37,977 bases of DNA. It comes from an uncultured Bacteroidota bacterium. Its GTDB lineage: Bacteria > Bacteroidota > Bacteroidia > Chitinophagales > Saprospiraceae. Location: the NCBI GenBank assembly GCA_937870795.1, contig CALMWS010000370.1:1-37977 (forward strand). Direction: 5' to 3'. This document shows, one piece after another, positions 31,848 to 36,909 of this stretch (its first letter is position 1; each line of letters opens with the position of its first letter). A program made the position numbers and the translations under genes. The notes below the pieces were generated by a model. That model was not told the DNA's origin. It was given only the letters and a program-made list of their open reading frames with translations, and ran no database searches.

Positions 31848-32270
31848 ATGTCAACTTTCAGAATTCTTGTATTCGCACTCTTTACCCTTGTTGGTTTTCA
31901 GCTATCGGCACAAAAGACCCCTGTGAAACCCAAAAAACAAGGTGTCCACATGACTTTTGAAAAAGAAACCGTCGAACTCGGCAGGATGAAAAAAGGGGAT
32001 AAACGCACCTTCGACTATGTATTTACCAACACAGGTACAGAAGTCATAGAAATTGAAATCGTTTCAGGCTGCGATTGTACCACTCTCGACTGGACGCGTA
32101 AGCCCATCAAACCGGGAGAAAAAGGTAAAGTAAACGTCATCTTTGACTCCAAAGAAAAAGAGATGACCGAAAAATCGGTTGATGTTGATATCTACCTCAA
32201 AAACAAAGACCCCAAGACCAATTCACAAATCCTGAAAATCCTGAACTATACCTTTGAATTGTATAAATAG
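31848..32270 (+). CDS. DUF1573 domain-containing exported protein
   Basis: Exported protein of 140 residues with signal peptide cleaved near residue 21 (FQLSAQ). The remainder is a single Ig-like DUF1573 domain: MTFEKETVELGRMKKGDKRTFDYVFTNTGTE and SGCDCTTLDWTRKPIKPGEKG, with C75 and C77 as in the family's C-x-C, then KVNVIFDSKEK. DUF1573 proteins are abundant in Bacteroidota and have no firmly established role. It is monocistronic and followed by a strong terminator, 22 bp past its stop. Confidence 0.9.
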   Translation: MSTFRILVFALFTLVGFQLSAQKTPVKPKKQGVHMTFEKETVELGRMKKGDKRTFDYVFTNTGTEVIEIEIVSGCDCTTLDWTRKPIKPGEKGKVNVIFDSKEKEMTEKSVDVDIYLKNKDPKTNSQILKILNYTFELYK

Positions 32271-32291: not shown

Positions 32292-32316
32292 AAAAAGGGG
32301 GCAATGCCCCCTTTTT
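32292..32316 (+). terminator. Intrinsic terminator of the DUF1573 gene
   Basis: AAAAAGGGGGC (32292-32302), loop AAT, GCCCCCTTTTT (32306-32316), followed by more T. It cleanly separates this gene from the copper-type locus that begins with the palindrome at 32333. Confidence 0.9.
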
Positions 32317-32332
32317 TATTTCGTCACCCAAC

Positions 32333-32352
32333 TTTATGACTGATGTCATAAA
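32333..32352. promoter_or_regulatory. Perfect 8+8 bp palindrome, candidate operator
   Basis: TTTATGAC-TGAT-GTCATAAA, a perfect inverted repeat with a 4-nt spacer. Its centre is about 43 bp before the transcription start estimated from the TACCTTTG box at 32372-32379, close to where a class II Crp/Fnr-type activator would bind. The size and layout fit a helix-turn-helix dimer. The regulator is not in the window. Confidence 0.7.
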
Positions 32353-32371
32353 ATTCTCCGTTTTGTTTTCC

Positions 32372-32379
32372 TACCTTTG
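32372..32379 (+). promoter_or_regulatory. -7 box of the copper-type locus
   Basis: TACCTTTG, exact TANNTTTG, only 7 nt before the ATG at 32387. Transcription would start at or near the ATG, implying a leaderless or almost leaderless message. No -33 TTG is found, consistent with activator dependence through the palindrome at 32333-32352. Confidence 0.55.
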
Positions 32380-32386
32380 CCTCGCT

Positions 32387-32779
32387 ATGCAGTTTCGCAA
32401 AGTCATATCATGGACTATGATCACATTGGTCACCTTCCTTTGCTTTAAGGATTGGATCACCGTTGTGCAATTTAAAGCCAACAGAAGTTATGTAGAACGT
32501 TATCTCTGCGTCAACCGCAACAACCCTTCCATGAAATGTAACGGCAAGTGTTTTCTAATGAAAAAACTCAAGGCCGGCCACAAACAAAACAATCAAAATC
32601 TTCCCCAAAACCAGGAGGAATGGCGCTCGGTTTATTATACCATCACAGAAGTGCCTGCTCTTTCTTTCCAGGACAGACCAAAGCCACTGAAATCAAAAAA
32701 CAATCATGTGGTCTTTGCCTCTAAATACCAAACCTGGTTATCTCTTTCTTCTCCACCTCCGGAGTATTCAGTGGGCTAA
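32387..32779 (+). CDS. Small membrane protein with a Cys-rich CNGKC motif
   Basis: Protein of 130 residues. One N-terminal membrane helix (about 8-28) precedes CVNRNNPSMKCNGKCFLMKKL, where C41, C51 and C55 form C-x9-C-NGK-C. I recall a recurrent uncharacterised Bacteroidota family with this pattern, C-x-N-x(5-7)-C-x-G-K-C-x-L. Met49, Met58 and the three Cys could bind a soft metal such as Cu(I), which is inference. An in-frame ATG at 32336 would add 17 residues but sits in the palindrome and before the -7 box, so I start at 32387. A beta-barrel gene follows after 42 bp, then MbnP- and MbnH-like genes. Confidence 0.8.
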   Translation: MQFRKVISWTMITLVTFLCFKDWITVVQFKANRSYVERYLCVNRNNPSMKCNGKCFLMKKLKAGHKQNNQNLPQNQEEWRSVYYTITEVPALSFQDRPKPLKSKNNHVVFASKYQTWLSLSSPPPEYSVG

Positions 32780-32821
32780 TTTTTTAGGTAACCACCTTAT
32801 TAACCTTCACTGAAATTTATT

Positions 32822-33715
32822 ATGGCAAACAAATTTATTTTGTGTTTGCTGTTAATGATGTTTGGGTCACCCATGGTAAAAGCTTGTGACGCATGCGGAT
32901 GCAGCATCGGCAATACCGGCAATGGCCTTACCACCGTCTTTAAAAAGAACTTTTTTAGTCTGGGCTATTTTGGATACAGCTTCAATGGCGCTCTCAACCA
33001 AACTTTGGCCACTAAAGACGGACATTACAGCATCACCGCTTCTGCCAGGATGAGTCTGGCGCAAAATTGGTACATGGTGGCTTCCGTGCCTTTTAAGTGG
33101 AATGTAAGAGCTGCCCTCGTCAGCCATTATCGTTTGCAGGGCGTGGGCGACATTCAACTGGCAGTGCACCGCGTAGTGATGAACCGCGCTATTGGGGCAT
33201 CTTCTTTGTACCTCGATGGAGGGCTCGCGCTTAAGATGCCGGTTGCCAATTTTAATCCCGTATTGGAGGATGGCAATTTACCCGTCAATTTTAATGTGGG
33301 CACAGGTACATGGTCACCCCAACTCAGACTCAATGCGGTTTACAATTACAAGCAGCTGGGTTTGTTGGTGTCGCCTTCCTTCCAATGGAGTCCCAAAAAC
33401 AGCAAGTCTTACCAGTTTGGCACACAGTTGGCAGTGCAGGCCGTGGCCTTTTATCAGCTGAAAGCAGGCGCTACATTGAGTATTACACCTTATGGTGGTT
33501 TTTATACCGAAAAAATTGGCAGGGACATCAATGCCAGCGGCAAGTACGAACACGGAACCGGGGCTACCGGAAGTTATACAATTTTTGGCCTCAACGTTAA
33601 ATGGAAAAATTTTGTCTTCGATGTGTCCACCCTTTCACCCCTCCAATCTACCTACGCCGGTGGTGAGGTAAAGGCAGGGAGCAGGTGGTCCGTACAAACT
33701 ACTTATTTATTTTAA
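32822..33715 (+). CDS. Outer membrane beta-barrel protein with N-terminal CDACGC motif
   Basis: Exported protein of 297 residues. The signal peptide (ANKFILCLLLMMFGSPMVKA) is followed at once by CDACGC, with Cys 22, 25 and 27 at the mature N terminus. The rest alternates amphipathic strands (for example ITASARMSLAQNWYMVASVPF, GASSLYLDGGLALKMPV) and ends in an aromatic residue (SVQTTYLF), typical of an outer membrane barrel. Homologues opening with CDxCGC are known to me as uncharacterised Bacteroidota barrels often beside MbnP-type genes. The three Cys suggest metal or thiol chemistry at the periplasmic N terminus. A 188-bp inverted repeat lies between this gene and the MbnP-like gene. Confidence 0.78.
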   Translation: MANKFILCLLLMMFGSPMVKACDACGCSIGNTGNGLTTVFKKNFFSLGYFGYSFNGALNQTLATKDGHYSITASARMSLAQNWYMVASVPFKWNVRAALVSHYRLQGVGDIQLAVHRVVMNRAIGASSLYLDGGLALKMPVANFNPVLEDGNLPVNFNVGTGTWSPQLRLNAVYNYKQLGLLVSPSFQWSPKNSKSYQFGTQLAVQAVAFYQLKAGATLSITPYGGFYTEKIGRDINASGKYEHGTGATGSYTIFGLNVKWKNFVFDVSTLSPLQSTYAGGEVKAGSRWSVQTTYLF

Positions 33716-33716
33716 C

Positions 33717-33904
33717 GTAACTATTCAGGTGGCTGCTTTCAGATTAAAAAAAACAGGCAATTTTGAGTCAGATGAGGCTTGCTTCGGCAAGCTCAGCACA
33801 TGGCATTTTGAGGAATCATAGCAGCGCTATGGTGACGAAAATAGCCGAAATATCACTCAAAATTGTCATTTTTTAATCGAAATTGAGTACACCTGAATAG
33901 TTAC
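33717..33904. repeat. 188-bp nested inverted-repeat element (MITE/REP-like)
   Basis: Terminal arms GTAACTATTCAGGTG (33717-33731) and CACCTGAATAGTTAC (33890-33904) are perfect over 15 bp. Inside are two more perfect pairs: GATTAAAAAA (33742-33751) with TTTTTTAATC (33869-33878), and CAATTTTGAGT (33758-33768) with ACTCAAAATTG (33855-33865). The centre has a hairpin with TTCG loop (33774-33794, one bulged G) and another, CATAGC-agc-GCTATG (33817-33831). No coding frame and no clear target duplication. It sits between the barrel and MbnP-like genes. Confidence 0.75.
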
Positions 33905-33926
33905 ATCATAACTAAAAATTGAAAAA

Positions 33927-34778
33927 ATGAAAACCCTTATAAAATTATTCACCCTTATTTCTATCATTACTTTTTTCTCTTGTGGCGATGATGATACTTC
34001 CACCACCACAGGCAGCATGGAAGTTGAATTCGACAACATCGCCATCGTCAATGGCATTGAACAACAACTTTCTTTGGTAACCGCTGGAAGTACCAGCTAT
34101 GGCTATACCAATTCCCTGGGACAAAAATTCAACATCAATTTGTTGCGTTACTACATCTCTGCCATCGAACTGGAAACTACCGATGGTAAGGTGTACAAAG
34201 ATGTACTCGAAGTATCGGCTACAGGCAGCAAAGGATATTACCTGATCGACGAAGCCAACCCTGCTTCACAGGTAGTTGAGCTGGACAACATTCCCGCCGG
34301 CAAGTACAGCAAGATTACCTTCACGGTTGGTGTCGACAGCACAGGTGTACTCAATGGTGCTACCGGTGGCGCACTTGACCCTGCTACCAGCAAGATGTTC
34401 TGGAACTGGAATTCAGGCTACATCGCCCTCAAATTTGAAGGTCAGTCTGATGCTTCCAACGGCGGTGTGAGTGGTGCAGAAACCGTCACTACTACCAATC
34501 CAAATGGCATCGCTTACCACATAGGAGGTTGGAAAAACATTGCAGGTACAGCCTTTGTGTACAACAACAAAAGAATCAGTTTCAACTTTGACACCGATGC
34601 TGTTGTGGATGCAAAATCTGCGCCCCACGTACACATGACCTTTGATGTAATGGGCTTATTCAATGGTCACCACAAAGTTGATTTCACAGGCAACCACAAT
34701 GTGCACAAACCATCCGATGGGGTGGACATGGCACACAACATGGAAGAAGCCTTCAACTTTGACCATATTCATCAGTAA
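33927..34778 (+). CDS. MbnP family copper-binding-type lipoprotein
   Basis: Predicted lipoprotein of 283 residues; lipobox FFSC19 after a short signal peptide. The MbnP pattern is recognisable: FNINLLRYYISAIELETTDG, then KMFWNWNSGYIALKFEGQSD (157-174). In methanotroph MbnP a Trp is oxidised to kynurenine by its partner MbnH to form the copper site; candidates here are W159, W161 and W202. The last 50 residues carry nine His (234, 236, 248, 249, 257, 260, 270, 280, 282) plus Met237, 242, 268 and 272, a likely metal-binding tail. The MbnH-like gene follows 57 bp downstream. No methanobactin precursor or biosynthesis gene is visible. Copper binding is inferred from family. Confidence 0.87.
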   Translation: MKTLIKLFTLISIITFFSCGDDDTSTTTGSMEVEFDNIAIVNGIEQQLSLVTAGSTSYGYTNSLGQKFNINLLRYYISAIELETTDGKVYKDVLEVSATGSKGYYLIDEANPASQVVELDNIPAGKYSKITFTVGVDSTGVLNGATGGALDPATSKMFWNWNSGYIALKFEGQSDASNGGVSGAETVTTTNPNGIAYHIGGWKNIAGTAFVYNNKRISFNFDTDAVVDAKSAPHVHMTFDVMGLFNGHHKVDFTGNHNVHKPSDGVDMAHNMEEAFNFDHIHQ

Positions 34779-34795
34779 TAGTTTTTATTGGAATT

Positions 34796-34821
34796 GGGCG
34801 GGCGGGGAAACCTGCCTGCCC
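34796..34821 (+). other. GC-rich intercistronic hairpin with GAAA loop
   Basis: GGGCGGGCGGG (34796-34806), loop GAAA, CCTGCCTGCCC (34811-34821): an 11-bp stem with two G-U pairs and a GNRA tetraloop. It lies between the MbnP-like stop and the MbnH-like ATG at 34836, 14 nt before it. No T-run follows, so processing, stability or partial termination is more likely than a full terminator. Confidence 0.7.
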
Positions 34822-34835
34822 TTATATCTTTTATC

Positions 34836-35849
34836 ATGAAAAAGTGGTTCTTTTTCCTGCCCTTCATTCTGGGCCTTATGGCATGCGGACAGGACAATAC
34901 AGATACTGAAAATCTATTCCCGGAGCTGCCTTCCTATTTTCCGGACCCGGTCTATCCGGTTGACAAATTTCCGGTGACCCAGGCAGGTTTCGACCTGGGT
35001 AAAAAACTCTTCAATGACCCCATCTTATCCGTAGATCAATCCATTGCCTGCAGCAACTGCCACGTCAAAGCCGTAGCCTTTGTAGATCCGCAGCACGCAC
35101 TCAGTCTGGGCGTCAATGAGCGGCATGGCATTCGCAACGCACCCTCCATTGCCAATATGGCCTTTATGAAGGAGTTTATGTGGGATGGAGGCGTCGTCCA
35201 CCTCGATTTTGTACCCCCCAATGCCATCGAAAATGAATTGGAAATGGATGAAAAATTGGCCCATGTGGTAGCCAAACTCAACCGCAGTTCTGTTTATCCG
35301 GCCATGTTTAAAAATGTTTTTTCGGGTATCGATACCATTACGGCTCCCCTTATGCTCAAGGCTTTGTCGCAATACCAGCTGATGTTGGTTTCCAAAGCTT
35401 CAAAGTACGATAAAGTCAGACAGGGAAAAGATCAATTCTCAGCCGATGAGTCAAAGGGATATGAGATTTTTAAAAGCAAATGTGCTGCCTGCCATTCAGA
35501 ACCCCTCTTTACCAACCAGGGCTATTTCAACAATGGCCTGGACGTGGTATTTCCTGATCTGGGCAGGGCCAGGATCACAGAAGACTTGGGCGATTTGGGC
35601 AAGTTTAAGGTGCCTTCACTGCGAAATGTGGCACTCACGGCTCCTTACATGCACGATGCCCGCTTCAAATCACTGATGGAAGTTTTAAACCACTATTCAG
35701 ACGGGGTCAAAGATTCACCCACATTGGCAGCTCCACTCAAGTCGGGCAGCCAGTTGGGCATTGCCCTCACCCTGGCAGAAAAACAATCGCTCATTGCTTT
35801 TTTAGGTACTTTGACCGATCACGAACTCATAAGTGACCCCCGATTTTGA
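34836..35849 (+). CDS. MbnH/MauG-like diheme cytochrome c peroxidase family lipoprotein
   Basis: Predicted lipoprotein of 337 residues from ATG 34836 with lipobox LMAC17; a longer frame from a TTG at 34788 crosses the GC hairpin and is rejected. Two CXXCH haem motifs are seen: C72-S-N-C75-H76 and C216-A-A-C219-H220. Other family features are FDLGKKLFNDPILSVD (52-67), HGIRNAPSIANMAF (97-110), FMWDGGV (114-120) and VPSLRNVALTAPYMHDARF (259-277). Immediately downstream of an MbnP-like gene, this fits the MbnP-MbnH pair rather than a general H2O2 scavenger; MbnH would oxidise a Trp of MbnP. Family assignment is firm; the specific partner reaction is inferred from context. Confidence 0.9.
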   Translation: MKKWFFFLPFILGLMACGQDNTDTENLFPELPSYFPDPVYPVDKFPVTQAGFDLGKKLFNDPILSVDQSIACSNCHVKAVAFVDPQHALSLGVNERHGIRNAPSIANMAFMKEFMWDGGVVHLDFVPPNAIENELEMDEKLAHVVAKLNRSSVYPAMFKNVFSGIDTITAPLMLKALSQYQLMLVSKASKYDKVRQGKDQFSADESKGYEIFKSKCAACHSEPLFTNQGYFNNGLDVVFPDLGRARITEDLGDLGKFKVPSLRNVALTAPYMHDARFKSLMEVLNHYSDGVKDSPTLAAPLKSGSQLGIALTLAEKQSLIAFLGTLTDHELISDPRF

Positions 35850-35872
35850 ACCAAGCACTGCCTTTAGATTGT

Positions 35873-35880
35873 TATCTTTG
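35873..35880 (+). promoter_or_regulatory. Candidate -7 box for the superoxide dismutase gene
   Basis: TATCTTTG, exact TANNTTTG, 18 nt before the ATG at 35899. TTTG occurs at 35845-35848, 24 nt upstream, a little far for a -33 element. The gene may also be read through from the MbnH-like gene, 49 bp upstream. Confidence 0.5.
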
Positions 35881-35898
35881 TGACTAAACCCAATTAAT

Positions 35899-36909
35899 AT
35901 GCGTCATTTAATATTTGCATTTTTGGTGACCCTTGCCACAACCGCATGGGCACAACCCGCAGGACCCTTTATTTTACCCCTGCTCCCTTACAACTATGAT
36001 GCCCTTGAACCCTATATCGATGCCCAAACCATGGAAATCCACCATTCCAAACACCACCAGGCGTATGTCAACAACCTCAATAAGGCACTGGCAGGAACCA
36101 AGTTTGAAGCCATGCCCCTGACTGACATCATCATGAGGGCTGAAAGAGCAGGTGCTGCCATCCGCAACAATGCAGGCGGTCACTACAATCACTCTTTGTT
36201 TTGGAGCATCCTGGGCAAAGGTGCTGCCTTCAATCCCAAATCAAAAGTAGGGGAAGCCATCATCGCCGACCTCGGTGGACTCGACAGCCTCCAGAAAATG
36301 CTCAACAAAGAAGCATCCTCCCGTTTTGGCTCTGGCTGGGCCTGGCTCTATCTAACGCCTGATAAAAAACTGGCGGTATGCTCATCTCCCAATCAGGACA
36401 ACCCCATCATGGATGTGAGCACTTACAGAGGCATTCCAATTCTTGGTATCGATGTGTGGGAACACGCCTACTACCTCAAATACCAGAACAAAAGAGGCGA
36501 CTACCTTTCTGCCATCTGGAACGTGATCAACTGGAATCAGGTCAACGAAAACTACCTCAATGCACTAAACGATGATCTTTTGCGCGTCATCGAAAAAGAT
36601 GCATGGACAGAGCTCAAGGAATTTCACAAAGTAATGGCCGCTACCTTCCACCCGGCTGAAGAAGGCGACTTTAAGCCCATCAGAGAGCGATCAGGAGAAA
36701 TGGCACTCAAAGCCATGGCCATCCAGAAGGGGAGAATACCAACTTCTTTCAATACGCCTGAAATCAACAAAGCAGTAGCAGACCTTGTATTGGGCGCCGA
36801 AAAATTGAACATGGCAGTGAAAAAGAATAAAAAAGACAAAGAACTCAACAAACAACTCACTGCCCTGCACGATGTGTTTCATACTATCCAGGGGCTGTGT
36901 AGTCATTGA
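35899..36909 (+). CDS. Exported Mn-type superoxide dismutase fused to an extra His-containing helical domain
   Basis: Protein of 336 residues with a signal peptide (MRHLIFAFLVTLATTAWAQ, cleavage near 19), so it acts in the periplasm or outside. The SOD domain is residues about 23-235. Metal ligands by alignment are H48 (MEIHHSKHH), H98 (GGHYNHSLFW), D185 and H189 (DVWEHAYY). GGH before the second ligand and Q166 (SPNQDNP) fit the Mn branch. Normal SODs are about 200 residues; here residues 236-336 add a helical domain with HKVMAATFHPAEEGD (243-257), RSGEMALKAMA and LHDVFHTIQGLCSH (323-336), His-containing and of no family I can name. It lies 49 bp downstream of the MbnH-like gene. Confidence 0.9.
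   Translation: MRHLIFAFLVTLATTAWAQPAGPFILPLLPYNYDALEPYIDAQTMEIHHSKHHQAYVNNLNKALAGTKFEAMPLTDIIMRAERAGAAIRNNAGGHYNHSLFWSILGKGAAFNPKSKVGEAIIADLGGLDSLQKMLNKEASSRFGSGWAWLYLTPDKKLAVCSSPNQDNPIMDVSTYRGIPILGIDVWEHAYYLKYQNKRGDYLSAIWNVINWNQVNENYLNALNDDLLRVIEKDAWTELKEFHKVMAATFHPAEEGDFKPIRERSGEMALKAMAIQKGRIPTSFNTPEINKAVADLVLGAEKLNMAVKKNKKDKELNKQLTALHDVFHTIQGLCSH

Follow-up and report, generated by a model that had tools for sequence, protein, structure and literature searches.

The 37,977-nt contig CALMWS010000370.1 of an uncultured Saprospiraceae bacterium (GCA_937870795.1), referred to here as the window, belongs to a 4.5-Mb genome that is 97% complete and carries five genes on the forward strand (32387-36909): a small cysteine protein that we call CNGKC, a CDACGC beta-barrel, an MbnP lipoprotein, an MbnH-like diheme protein and an exported Fe/Mn superoxide dismutase (SOD). 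The locus is a real, conserved copper-type operon. We propose, with a probability of roughly 0.6, that CNGKC acts in cis as a nascent copper sensor over the copper-acquisition genes of this operon, a reading built on sequence and on analogy with known regulators. A previous sequence-only reading had described a periplasmic and outer-membrane copper-handling locus of five same-strand genes with an MbnP-MbnH pair; all five genes were confirmed on the forward strand, and the copper assignment is supported by the pair and by conserved linkage to copper-type genes. The features that point to copper are MbnP-MbnH, OprC-like receptors with a CxxxM motif, SCO, and nosL/nosD neighbours. The closest relatives carrying the locus are likewise Saprospiraceae, and the order and strand of the five genes were preserved in two relatives of the same genus.

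The CNGKC protein of the window had no Pfam or NCBIfam match. Its open frame begins at 32336, and conservation together with the promoter box set the start at ATG 32387. C41, C51 and C55 were invariant in 18 aligned sequences, and P124-P125 (codons 32756-32761) are followed by only 5 more residues. Of 296 Bacteroidota genomes drawn evenly across the phylum, 116 had the family, with up to three copies per genome, one per operon. All 115 non-redundant copies contained CxxxC and all ended with Pro-Pro within the last 13 residues, totals that are partly by construction as the recruitment profiles contain the motif; the first cysteine lay 10 residues ahead in 110 copies, and a clear hydrophobic segment preceded the Cys region in 104. 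By comparison, among 220 other genes of 80-220 aa at these loci, 8 encode Pro-Pro within the last 13 residues. The residue preceding Pro-Pro was H (43 copies), R (24), K (17), P (14) or Q (9) in 107 of the 115. From the last Cys to Pro-Pro we counted 67.0 residues (standard deviation (sd) 2.2; 64-69 in 100 of 115) across a linker of 15% median identity. The barrel, MbnH and MbnP families are 27-44% identical, and for a linker as divergent as that of CNGKC the spacing is tight; the median sd for anchor pairs in MbnP was 3.9, SCO (2 sequences) and TBDRc1 (1 sequence) being left out of these spacing controls. Judged from its sequences, CNGKC forms a widespread family of its own, marked by an arrest-like Pro-Pro C-terminus. 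Tandem CNGKC genes were seen heading one operon at two loci (L079 5972-6976 and L121; L numbers are our locus handles).

The genes that CNGKC heads were surveyed in 49 copies from 40 loci, picked by CNGKC score regardless of the barrel. The next gene encoded a TonB receptor in 16 cases, MbnP in 11, a YtkA-like protein in 8, the barrel in 3, a YHS protein in 3, an SOD domain in 1 and another CNGKC in 1, with 6 other, spurious or lost at a contig end. A recurrent family was found among the next three same-strand genes in 48 of the 49, the remaining copy lying at a contig end. Six of the 16 receptors belonged to our OprC-like class c1, eight to class c5 and two to others, and all 8 YtkA-like proteins were followed by a c1 receptor. 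The best NCBIfam match of four tested c1 receptors was TIGR01778 (TonB-copper; 81-246 bits, below the cut-off of 472), and a motif search located CxxxM in the plug stretch of 10 of the 14 c1 receptors; CxxxM is half of the CxxxM-HxM copper site described for OprC (PMC8610252). PepSY_TM proteins came after four c5 receptors, as is also reported behind receptors in CrtA operons (PMC12914433). SCO and YHS neighbours were identified by Pfam.

Just before CNGKC, 40 of 68 copies had a match to TAnnTTTG (shuffles: mean 5.0, maximum 13 in 200), which we take to be the Bacteroidota -7 promoter element consensus. Eleven of the 68 lie at most 10 nt behind another gene, mostly heading a second module, and none of these had the box, against 40 of the 57 others (Fisher p 1.4e-5). 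This distribution suggests that CNGKC usually opens the transcription unit as first gene of copper-type operons. The buried copies persist inside operons without a box, so any regulation there must be post-transcriptional.

Linkage of the CNGKC gene to the barrel was strong. The barrel was found in 20 of 60 relatives, and CNGKC lay upstream on the same strand in 18 of 19 barrel stretches, the 19th being truncated where its contig runs out beside MbnP. Scanning named genomes yielded 55 loci with a barrel (6 repeating earlier ones), whose neighbours were labelled with profiles built in this analysis: in 50 of these 55, CNGKC lay upstream, no more than three genes from the barrel, and the loci also held MbnP (31), MbnH (30), a His-rich lipoprotein (33), a YHS-domain protein (13) and the C-terminal domain of the SOD (6). 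The co-occurrence of the Cys protein and barrel with MbnP and MbnH in other genomes, on which the sequence-only reading depended, is therefore borne out by these counts. The His-rich lipoprotein averaged 7.1% His (28 proteins), compared with 2.3% in 133 other small genes. As for the barrels without a near CNGKC, L128 abuts a contig end at its start, in L145 CNGKC belongs to the same run but stands five genes ahead, and at L117 CNGKC was looked for and none was found. At L137 and L138 a barrel of the same family, without CNGKC, lies between nosL-nosD-nosF and a nosY-like gene; the order in L137 (4311-7831) is NosL (42.5 bits), NosD (129.5 bits), ABC ATPase, ScdA/hemerythrin, barrel and ABC-2 permease. 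The nos cluster comprises maturation genes for a copper enzyme, nitrous oxide reductase.

Across the 296-genome draw the barrel profile matched in 106 genomes (many weakly) and MbnP in 78. Upstream counts used the 150 CNGKC places listed (at least 150 exist) and omitted barrels below 54 bits as well as 3 MbnP places that scored under the cut-off of their family. Among the matches listed, CNGKC was upstream of 23 of 24 strong barrels (at least 200 bits), 10 of 12 middling ones and 1 of 20 weak ones (54-100 bits), and the distant, weak-scoring barrels are probably other families. CNGKC lay within 5 kb upstream of 43 of 100 MbnP places, again among the matches listed. From these counts CNGKC and the barrel form a unit, CNGKC with MbnP is a common association, and MbnP and CNGKC each also occur apart.

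CNGKC resembles two kinds of published regulator. CruR (DUF2946, PF11162; Bordetella pertussis bp2923) is described as a small exported protein, encoded by the first gene of its operon, in which 45 residues, give or take one or two, separate CXXC from a C-terminal RAPP; at low copper, arrest keeps the operon on, and copper relieves the arrest so that Rho ends transcription, the operons holding OprC-type receptors, PepSY_TM, Sco and MbnPH-like genes (PMC9426467). Its arrest has been demonstrated in vitro (PMC12992588). Loss of the N-terminal hydrophobic segment reportedly does not abolish sensing by CruR, whereas in CNGKC it would be expected to. CNGKC is like CruR in being the short exported product of a first gene, with a Cys motif, a C-terminal Pro-Pro, a fixed spacing and a similar operon gene set, but has C-x9-CxxxC instead of CXXC, F[HRKQP]PP instead of RAPP and 67 instead of 45 residues. 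It falls outside the CruR family, since PF11162 matched neither the window protein nor any of the 18 aligned members and the CXXC/RAPP-45 rule does not hold. DUF2946 occurred in 8 of the 296 genomes, in 5 above the cut-off. In genome G298 (L180 1387-3348) a DUF2946 protein ending in RGPP lies directly before MbnP-MbnH, where others have CNGKC, and two further DUF2946 proteins of the phylum, one ending in RGPP and one in RAPP, stand ahead of TonB receptors. Because a DUF2946 protein takes the place of CNGKC in G298, CNGKC would be a regulator of the CruR kind; this swap is, by analogy, the best single argument for that assignment.

CutF of Rhodobacter capsulatus combines CxxxC with a Pro-rich end, senses periplasmic copper and needs its Sec signal, and 40% of CutF-like proteins, normalised, are reported to come from Bacteroidota (PMC9973294). 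CutF-like proteins are defined there by a length below 150 aa, an N-terminal signal, PP in the last 15 residues and a same-strand gene within less than 1000 nt (PMC9973294); the window CNGKC has 130 aa, a hydrophobic N-terminus, P124-P125 and the barrel 42 nt behind, and the family may be among the published CutF-like cluster lists. The gene after CutF encodes a multicopper oxidase, whereas those after CNGKC are mostly of the uptake or scavenging kind. RAPP/RGPP arrest peptides resemble CNGKC as small exported proteins with Pro-Pro near the C-terminus, encoded upstream of the genes they control, some of which are copper-related (PMC12992588, PMC10987492), and copper-related RAPP/RGPP upstream open reading frames are reported to be missing in Bacteroidota (PMC12992588). 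With its different motif, CNGKC would fill that gap. Copper control by nascent chains has reportedly been shown in a few Proteobacteria; the CruR/CutF kind of control is thus already known, and what would be new here is the motif, the spacing and the phylum.

In the mechanism that we propose, the N-terminal hydrophobic segment of CNGKC would dock the translating ribosome at the Sec translocon, and the ribosome would slow or stop on the C-terminal F/hydrophobic-[HRKQP]-Pro-Pro motif. Ribosome tunnel and translocon together would be spanned by about 65 residues. With about 67 residues from last Cys to Pro-Pro, the C-x9-C-x-G-x-C site would then sit just at the periplasmic mouth, where it could bind copper, whereas the 45 residues of CruR would leave its site in the cytosol. 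Copper binding would alter the stall and thereby the expression of the genes behind. The sign is likely to be that of CruR, on when copper is scarce and off when copper is bound, because the controlled genes are of the uptake and scavenging kind. MbnP, at the surface or in the periplasm, would carry a copper site made by the diheme MbnH-like enzyme through conversion of Trp to kynurenine, and the remaining products would supply a 12-strand channel with an N-terminal Cys clip and an exported SOD that carries a His/Cys four-helix domain. More tentatively, and with clearly less than even odds, CNGKC may define an arrest-peptide class of the Bacteroidota, with F[HRKQP]PP and a 67-residue ruler and several members per genome, some of them inside operons, which reads periplasmic copper through the ribosome and controls varied uptake modules, including a non-TonB CDxCGC channel.

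The sequence-only reading had suggested that the small Cys protein may form the membrane part of the copper pathway. This was not supported for a widespread family that ends in Pro-Pro and heads many different copper-type operons, which is better explained by regulation in cis than by a role within the pathway. A related explanation, which we regard as unlikely, is that mature CNGKC is a membrane-anchored periplasmic copper(I) chaperone or reductase feeding MbnP, the receptors, SCO or the barrel, with regulation left to ordinary transcription factors. One hydrophobic segment and three conserved cysteines would suit a metal carrier that always adjoins copper-type genes, and a palindrome conserved within the genus before CNGKC could be an operator for such a factor; however, a chaperone leaves unexplained why Pro-Pro is retained in every copy behind a linker of such low identity, why there is one copy per operon with several per genome and even tandem copies (L079, L121), and why promoter-less copies occur inside operons. 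Were CNGKC a nascent sensor of the opposite sign, as in CutF, copper would strengthen the pause and turn on a copper-tolerance operon in which the SOD and diheme protein are protective. CxxxC, a Pro-rich end and a required Sec signal are CutF features (PMC9973294), the gaps from CNGKC to the next gene are often short, and an exported SOD beside a protein of the diheme peroxidase family would suit oxidative protection. We nevertheless consider this sign improbable: acquisition-type genes predominate downstream (TonB receptors, MbnP, SCO), and among the genes immediately following CNGKC in the 49 contexts none was recognised as an efflux gene, although no scan was aimed at efflux families. The CutF stem-loop covers the next start; mRNA folding behind CNGKC gave a mean z of -1.6 over 67 copies (26 below -2) and the window, at z -0.82, has no marked stem-loop over the barrel start. 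An operon for another metal (iron, zinc or nickel) or for general envelope redox stress seems highly improbable; the NCBIfam scores of c5 receptors favour siderophore/heme receptors and the SOD here is of the Fe/Mn type, but MbnP-MbnH, the OprC-like CxxxM receptors, SCO and the nosL/nosD neighbours indicate copper.

Several observations weigh against the nascent-sensor reading itself. The weak folding in the window is one of them, as are the partly built-in Pro-Pro count and the 57 of 100 MbnP places, among the matches listed, that had no CNGKC within 5 kb upstream. The gap from CNGKC to the barrel is 42 nt in the window against 162 nt in CruR, and the CNGKC motif is not RAPP/RGPP, the form with which arrest was shown for CruR. 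In two structured families the median anchor-pair sd was 2.0 (barrel) and 1.9 (MbnH), so the value of 2.2 for CNGKC is not lower.

The MbnP gene and its MbnH-like partner, proposed from the sequence alone, were confirmed. MbnP matched PF20243 with 149.1 bits (cut-off 27) and scored below the equivalog cut-off of NCBIfam TIGR04052 (33.7 vs 140 bits). In an alignment of 34 sequences W159 was present in 34, W161 in 33 and H198 in 34; H236, H260 and H280 were kept in 82-88% and the lipobox Cys in all. A single-sequence search of solved structures gave nothing useful for MbnP, and a profile search matched 7l6g. The MbnH-like protein matched PF03150 (154 bits) and, as best solved structure, 6e1c ('Di-heme enzyme', E 1.6e-43); its best NCBIfam model was TIGR04039 (195.2 bits, ahead of MauG at 155.9; below the cut-off of 362.85), and two CxxCH haem sites were present in 31 of 31 sequences, the window included. 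As both proteins score below their equivalog cut-offs, the name MbnP family is safe and the kynurenine site is predicted only. With the MbnP-MbnH 'metallo-mystery pair' (6e1c; 7l6g) the locus shares the MbnP domain with W-x-W and H198 and the adjoining diheme gene, and CorA-CorB and MopE-SACCP are comparable pairs of a copper protein and a diheme partner; in CorA and MopE copper is reported to be bound by two His and kynurenine, with the diheme gene adjoining (PMC3912023). Two further MbnP genes are present in the host genome (G000:C40:51-500, L043, and G000:C74:67191-67793, L044); the surrounding stretches that were fetched showed no recognisable MbnH- or CNGKC-like gene, L043 lying at a contig end.

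The barrel had no Pfam or NCBIfam match; PF13557 matched 5 of 43 relatives and not the window protein. Its AlphaFold2 model has 12 strands (predicted local distance difference test (pLDDT) 86.5, predicted template modelling score (pTM) 0.81), with the N-terminal Cys segment at low confidence. The nearest folds were 4rl8 (COG4313 channel, E 1.4e-9) and 5o67 (FapF, E 3.8e-12), at template modelling (TM) scores of about 0.63-0.69. The 12-strand fold is shared with these channels at an identity of only 12-14%, and the N-terminal CDxCGC motif and the copper-gene linkage are the barrel's own. Among 43 barrel sequences C22, D23 and C25 were invariant and G26, C27 and S28 nearly so. The model suggests a 12-strand outer-membrane channel like COG4313/FapF, and we infer channel function from this fold.

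The exported SOD matched the Fe/Mn domains PF00081 and PF02777 (109.8 and 125.7 bits). Its last 117 aa form an extra C-terminal domain, overlooked in the sequence-only reading, which is predicted to be a four-helix bundle (pLDDT 92.8) and in which H243, H251, H324, H328 and C334 are invariant in 7 sequences. A fold search with this domain found no match at E <= 0.001; for similarity to cytochrome b562-like four-helix proteins the values were E 0.069 and TM 0.63/0.68 (4er9). In other genomes the domain is also found by itself, making up a small exported protein encoded next to CNGKC, at six loci (L080, L088, L136, L146, L152 and L163). The SOD had been counted as a member of the locus, and its gene is indeed present here; elsewhere it is an occasional partner, full-length exported SOD being near CNGKC in only 5 of the 40 CNGKC loci (L086, L087, L091, L093 and L104) and in the two same-genus relatives, and we rejected it as a core operon member.

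Further genes were observed around CNGKC in individual loci. Among named species, Flavilitoribacter nigricans DSM 23189 (L121) and Membranihabitans marinus (L123) each have CNGKC, barrel, MbnP and MbnH. L087, L093 and L104 contain the run CNGKC-YHS-SCO-SOD-CNGKC-MbnP-MbnH-barrel, beside which lie a Fur-family-like regulator and a His-rich P-type ATPase-like gene, both named by sequence appearance. A WD40-looking exported gene stands between CNGKC and barrel in L136 (964-2199) and L139 (4747-5970). An M1-family peptidase (Pfam; L149 2104-4056) follows a YHS gene, with similar genes of about 650 aa in L150-L157.

An Rfam search of the window gave no match; the non-coding elements found by other means are listed with the genes in the table. 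DUF1573 and M14 peptidase genes precede the locus in the window and in both same-genus relatives. We rejected the DUF1573 protein as a member of the unit, as a terminator-like hairpin intervenes and the linkage was seen in the same genus only. The strong terminator announced before the locus thus exists as a hairpin that belongs to the DUF1573 gene, and the call is weak, with 10 terminator-like sites in the region against 7.2 expected. The perfect palindrome announced with it is also real, at 0.17 occurrences of TTATGAC-N4-GTCATAA expected by chance in the window (up to 2 mismatches allowed), and is retained in the two same-genus relatives, in one of them with one change; it could be a Crp/Fnr-type operator. 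As an operator shared across the regulon it was rejected: any TGAC-n3-6-GTCA occurred in just 5 of 67 upstream regions of CNGKC copies, the rest of the host genome had only 2 one-mismatch sites against 1 for a control pattern, and conservation stops at the genus. The repeat between barrel and MbnP is about 200 bp long, has perfect 15-bp inverted ends and recurs in two more copies in the genome at 81-82% identity. Since the same gap is 23 nt in the two same-genus relatives, which do not have the repeat, it is a recent insertion resembling a miniature inverted-repeat transposable element; it plays no part in operon function and could affect expression from MbnP onwards. A GC-rich hairpin of 11 pairs (34796-34821), followed by a T-rich stretch, lies between the MbnP stop and MbnH start and is a possible terminator or processing site inside the operon.

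Table. Genes and sequence elements of the copper-type locus and its upstream flank, in window coordinates.
Feature	Position	Strand	Basis
Upstream DUF1573 gene, outside operon	31848-32270		
Terminator-like hairpin, 11 pairs, closing the upstream DUF1573 gene; operon boundary	32292..32316	+	matched by a hairpin at the equivalent site in both same-genus relatives
Perfect palindrome TTATGAC-TGAT-GTCATAA, some 30 bp upstream of the -7 box	32334..32351	.	sequence, kept within the genus only
TACCTTTG, match to -7 promoter element TAnnTTTG, 7 bp before CNGKC start codon	32372..32379	+	
CNGKC protein, 130 aa; N-terminal hydrophobic segment, C41...C51-N-G-K-C55, P124-P125	32387..32779	+	conservation, promoter box
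CDACGC outer-membrane beta-barrel (predicted), 297 aa; C22/C25/C27 just behind signal peptide	32822..33715	+	structure prediction, family alignment
Repeat with inverted ends GTAACTATTCAGGTG / CACCTGAATAGTTAC, between barrel and MbnP	33713..33915	.	sequence comparison
MbnP-family lipoprotein, 283 aa; lipobox C19, W159-N-W161, H198, H236, H260, H280	33927..34778	+	PF20243, alignment
MbnH/MauG-like diheme protein, 337 aa; two CxxCH	34836..35849	+	PF03150, structure 6e1c
Exported Fe/Mn superoxide dismutase, 336 aa	35899..36909	+	PF00081 + PF02777
SOD C-terminal domain, residues 220-336	36556..36906	+	structure prediction, alignment

Copper sensing and uptake in Bacteroidota are little known, and a search of the papers available, pairing copper with MbnP, CutF or Bacteroidota, turned up no experimental study of these genes. 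If CNGKC is a nascent copper sensor, one short motif search would flag copper-uptake modules throughout the phylum, and an outer-membrane barrel and a helical domain, both so far without annotation, would gain a role. The two spacings, 45 residues in CruR and 67 in CNGKC, predict cytoplasmic and periplasmic sensing, respectively, and the family would offer a direct test of a nascent chain that reports a metal across the membrane.

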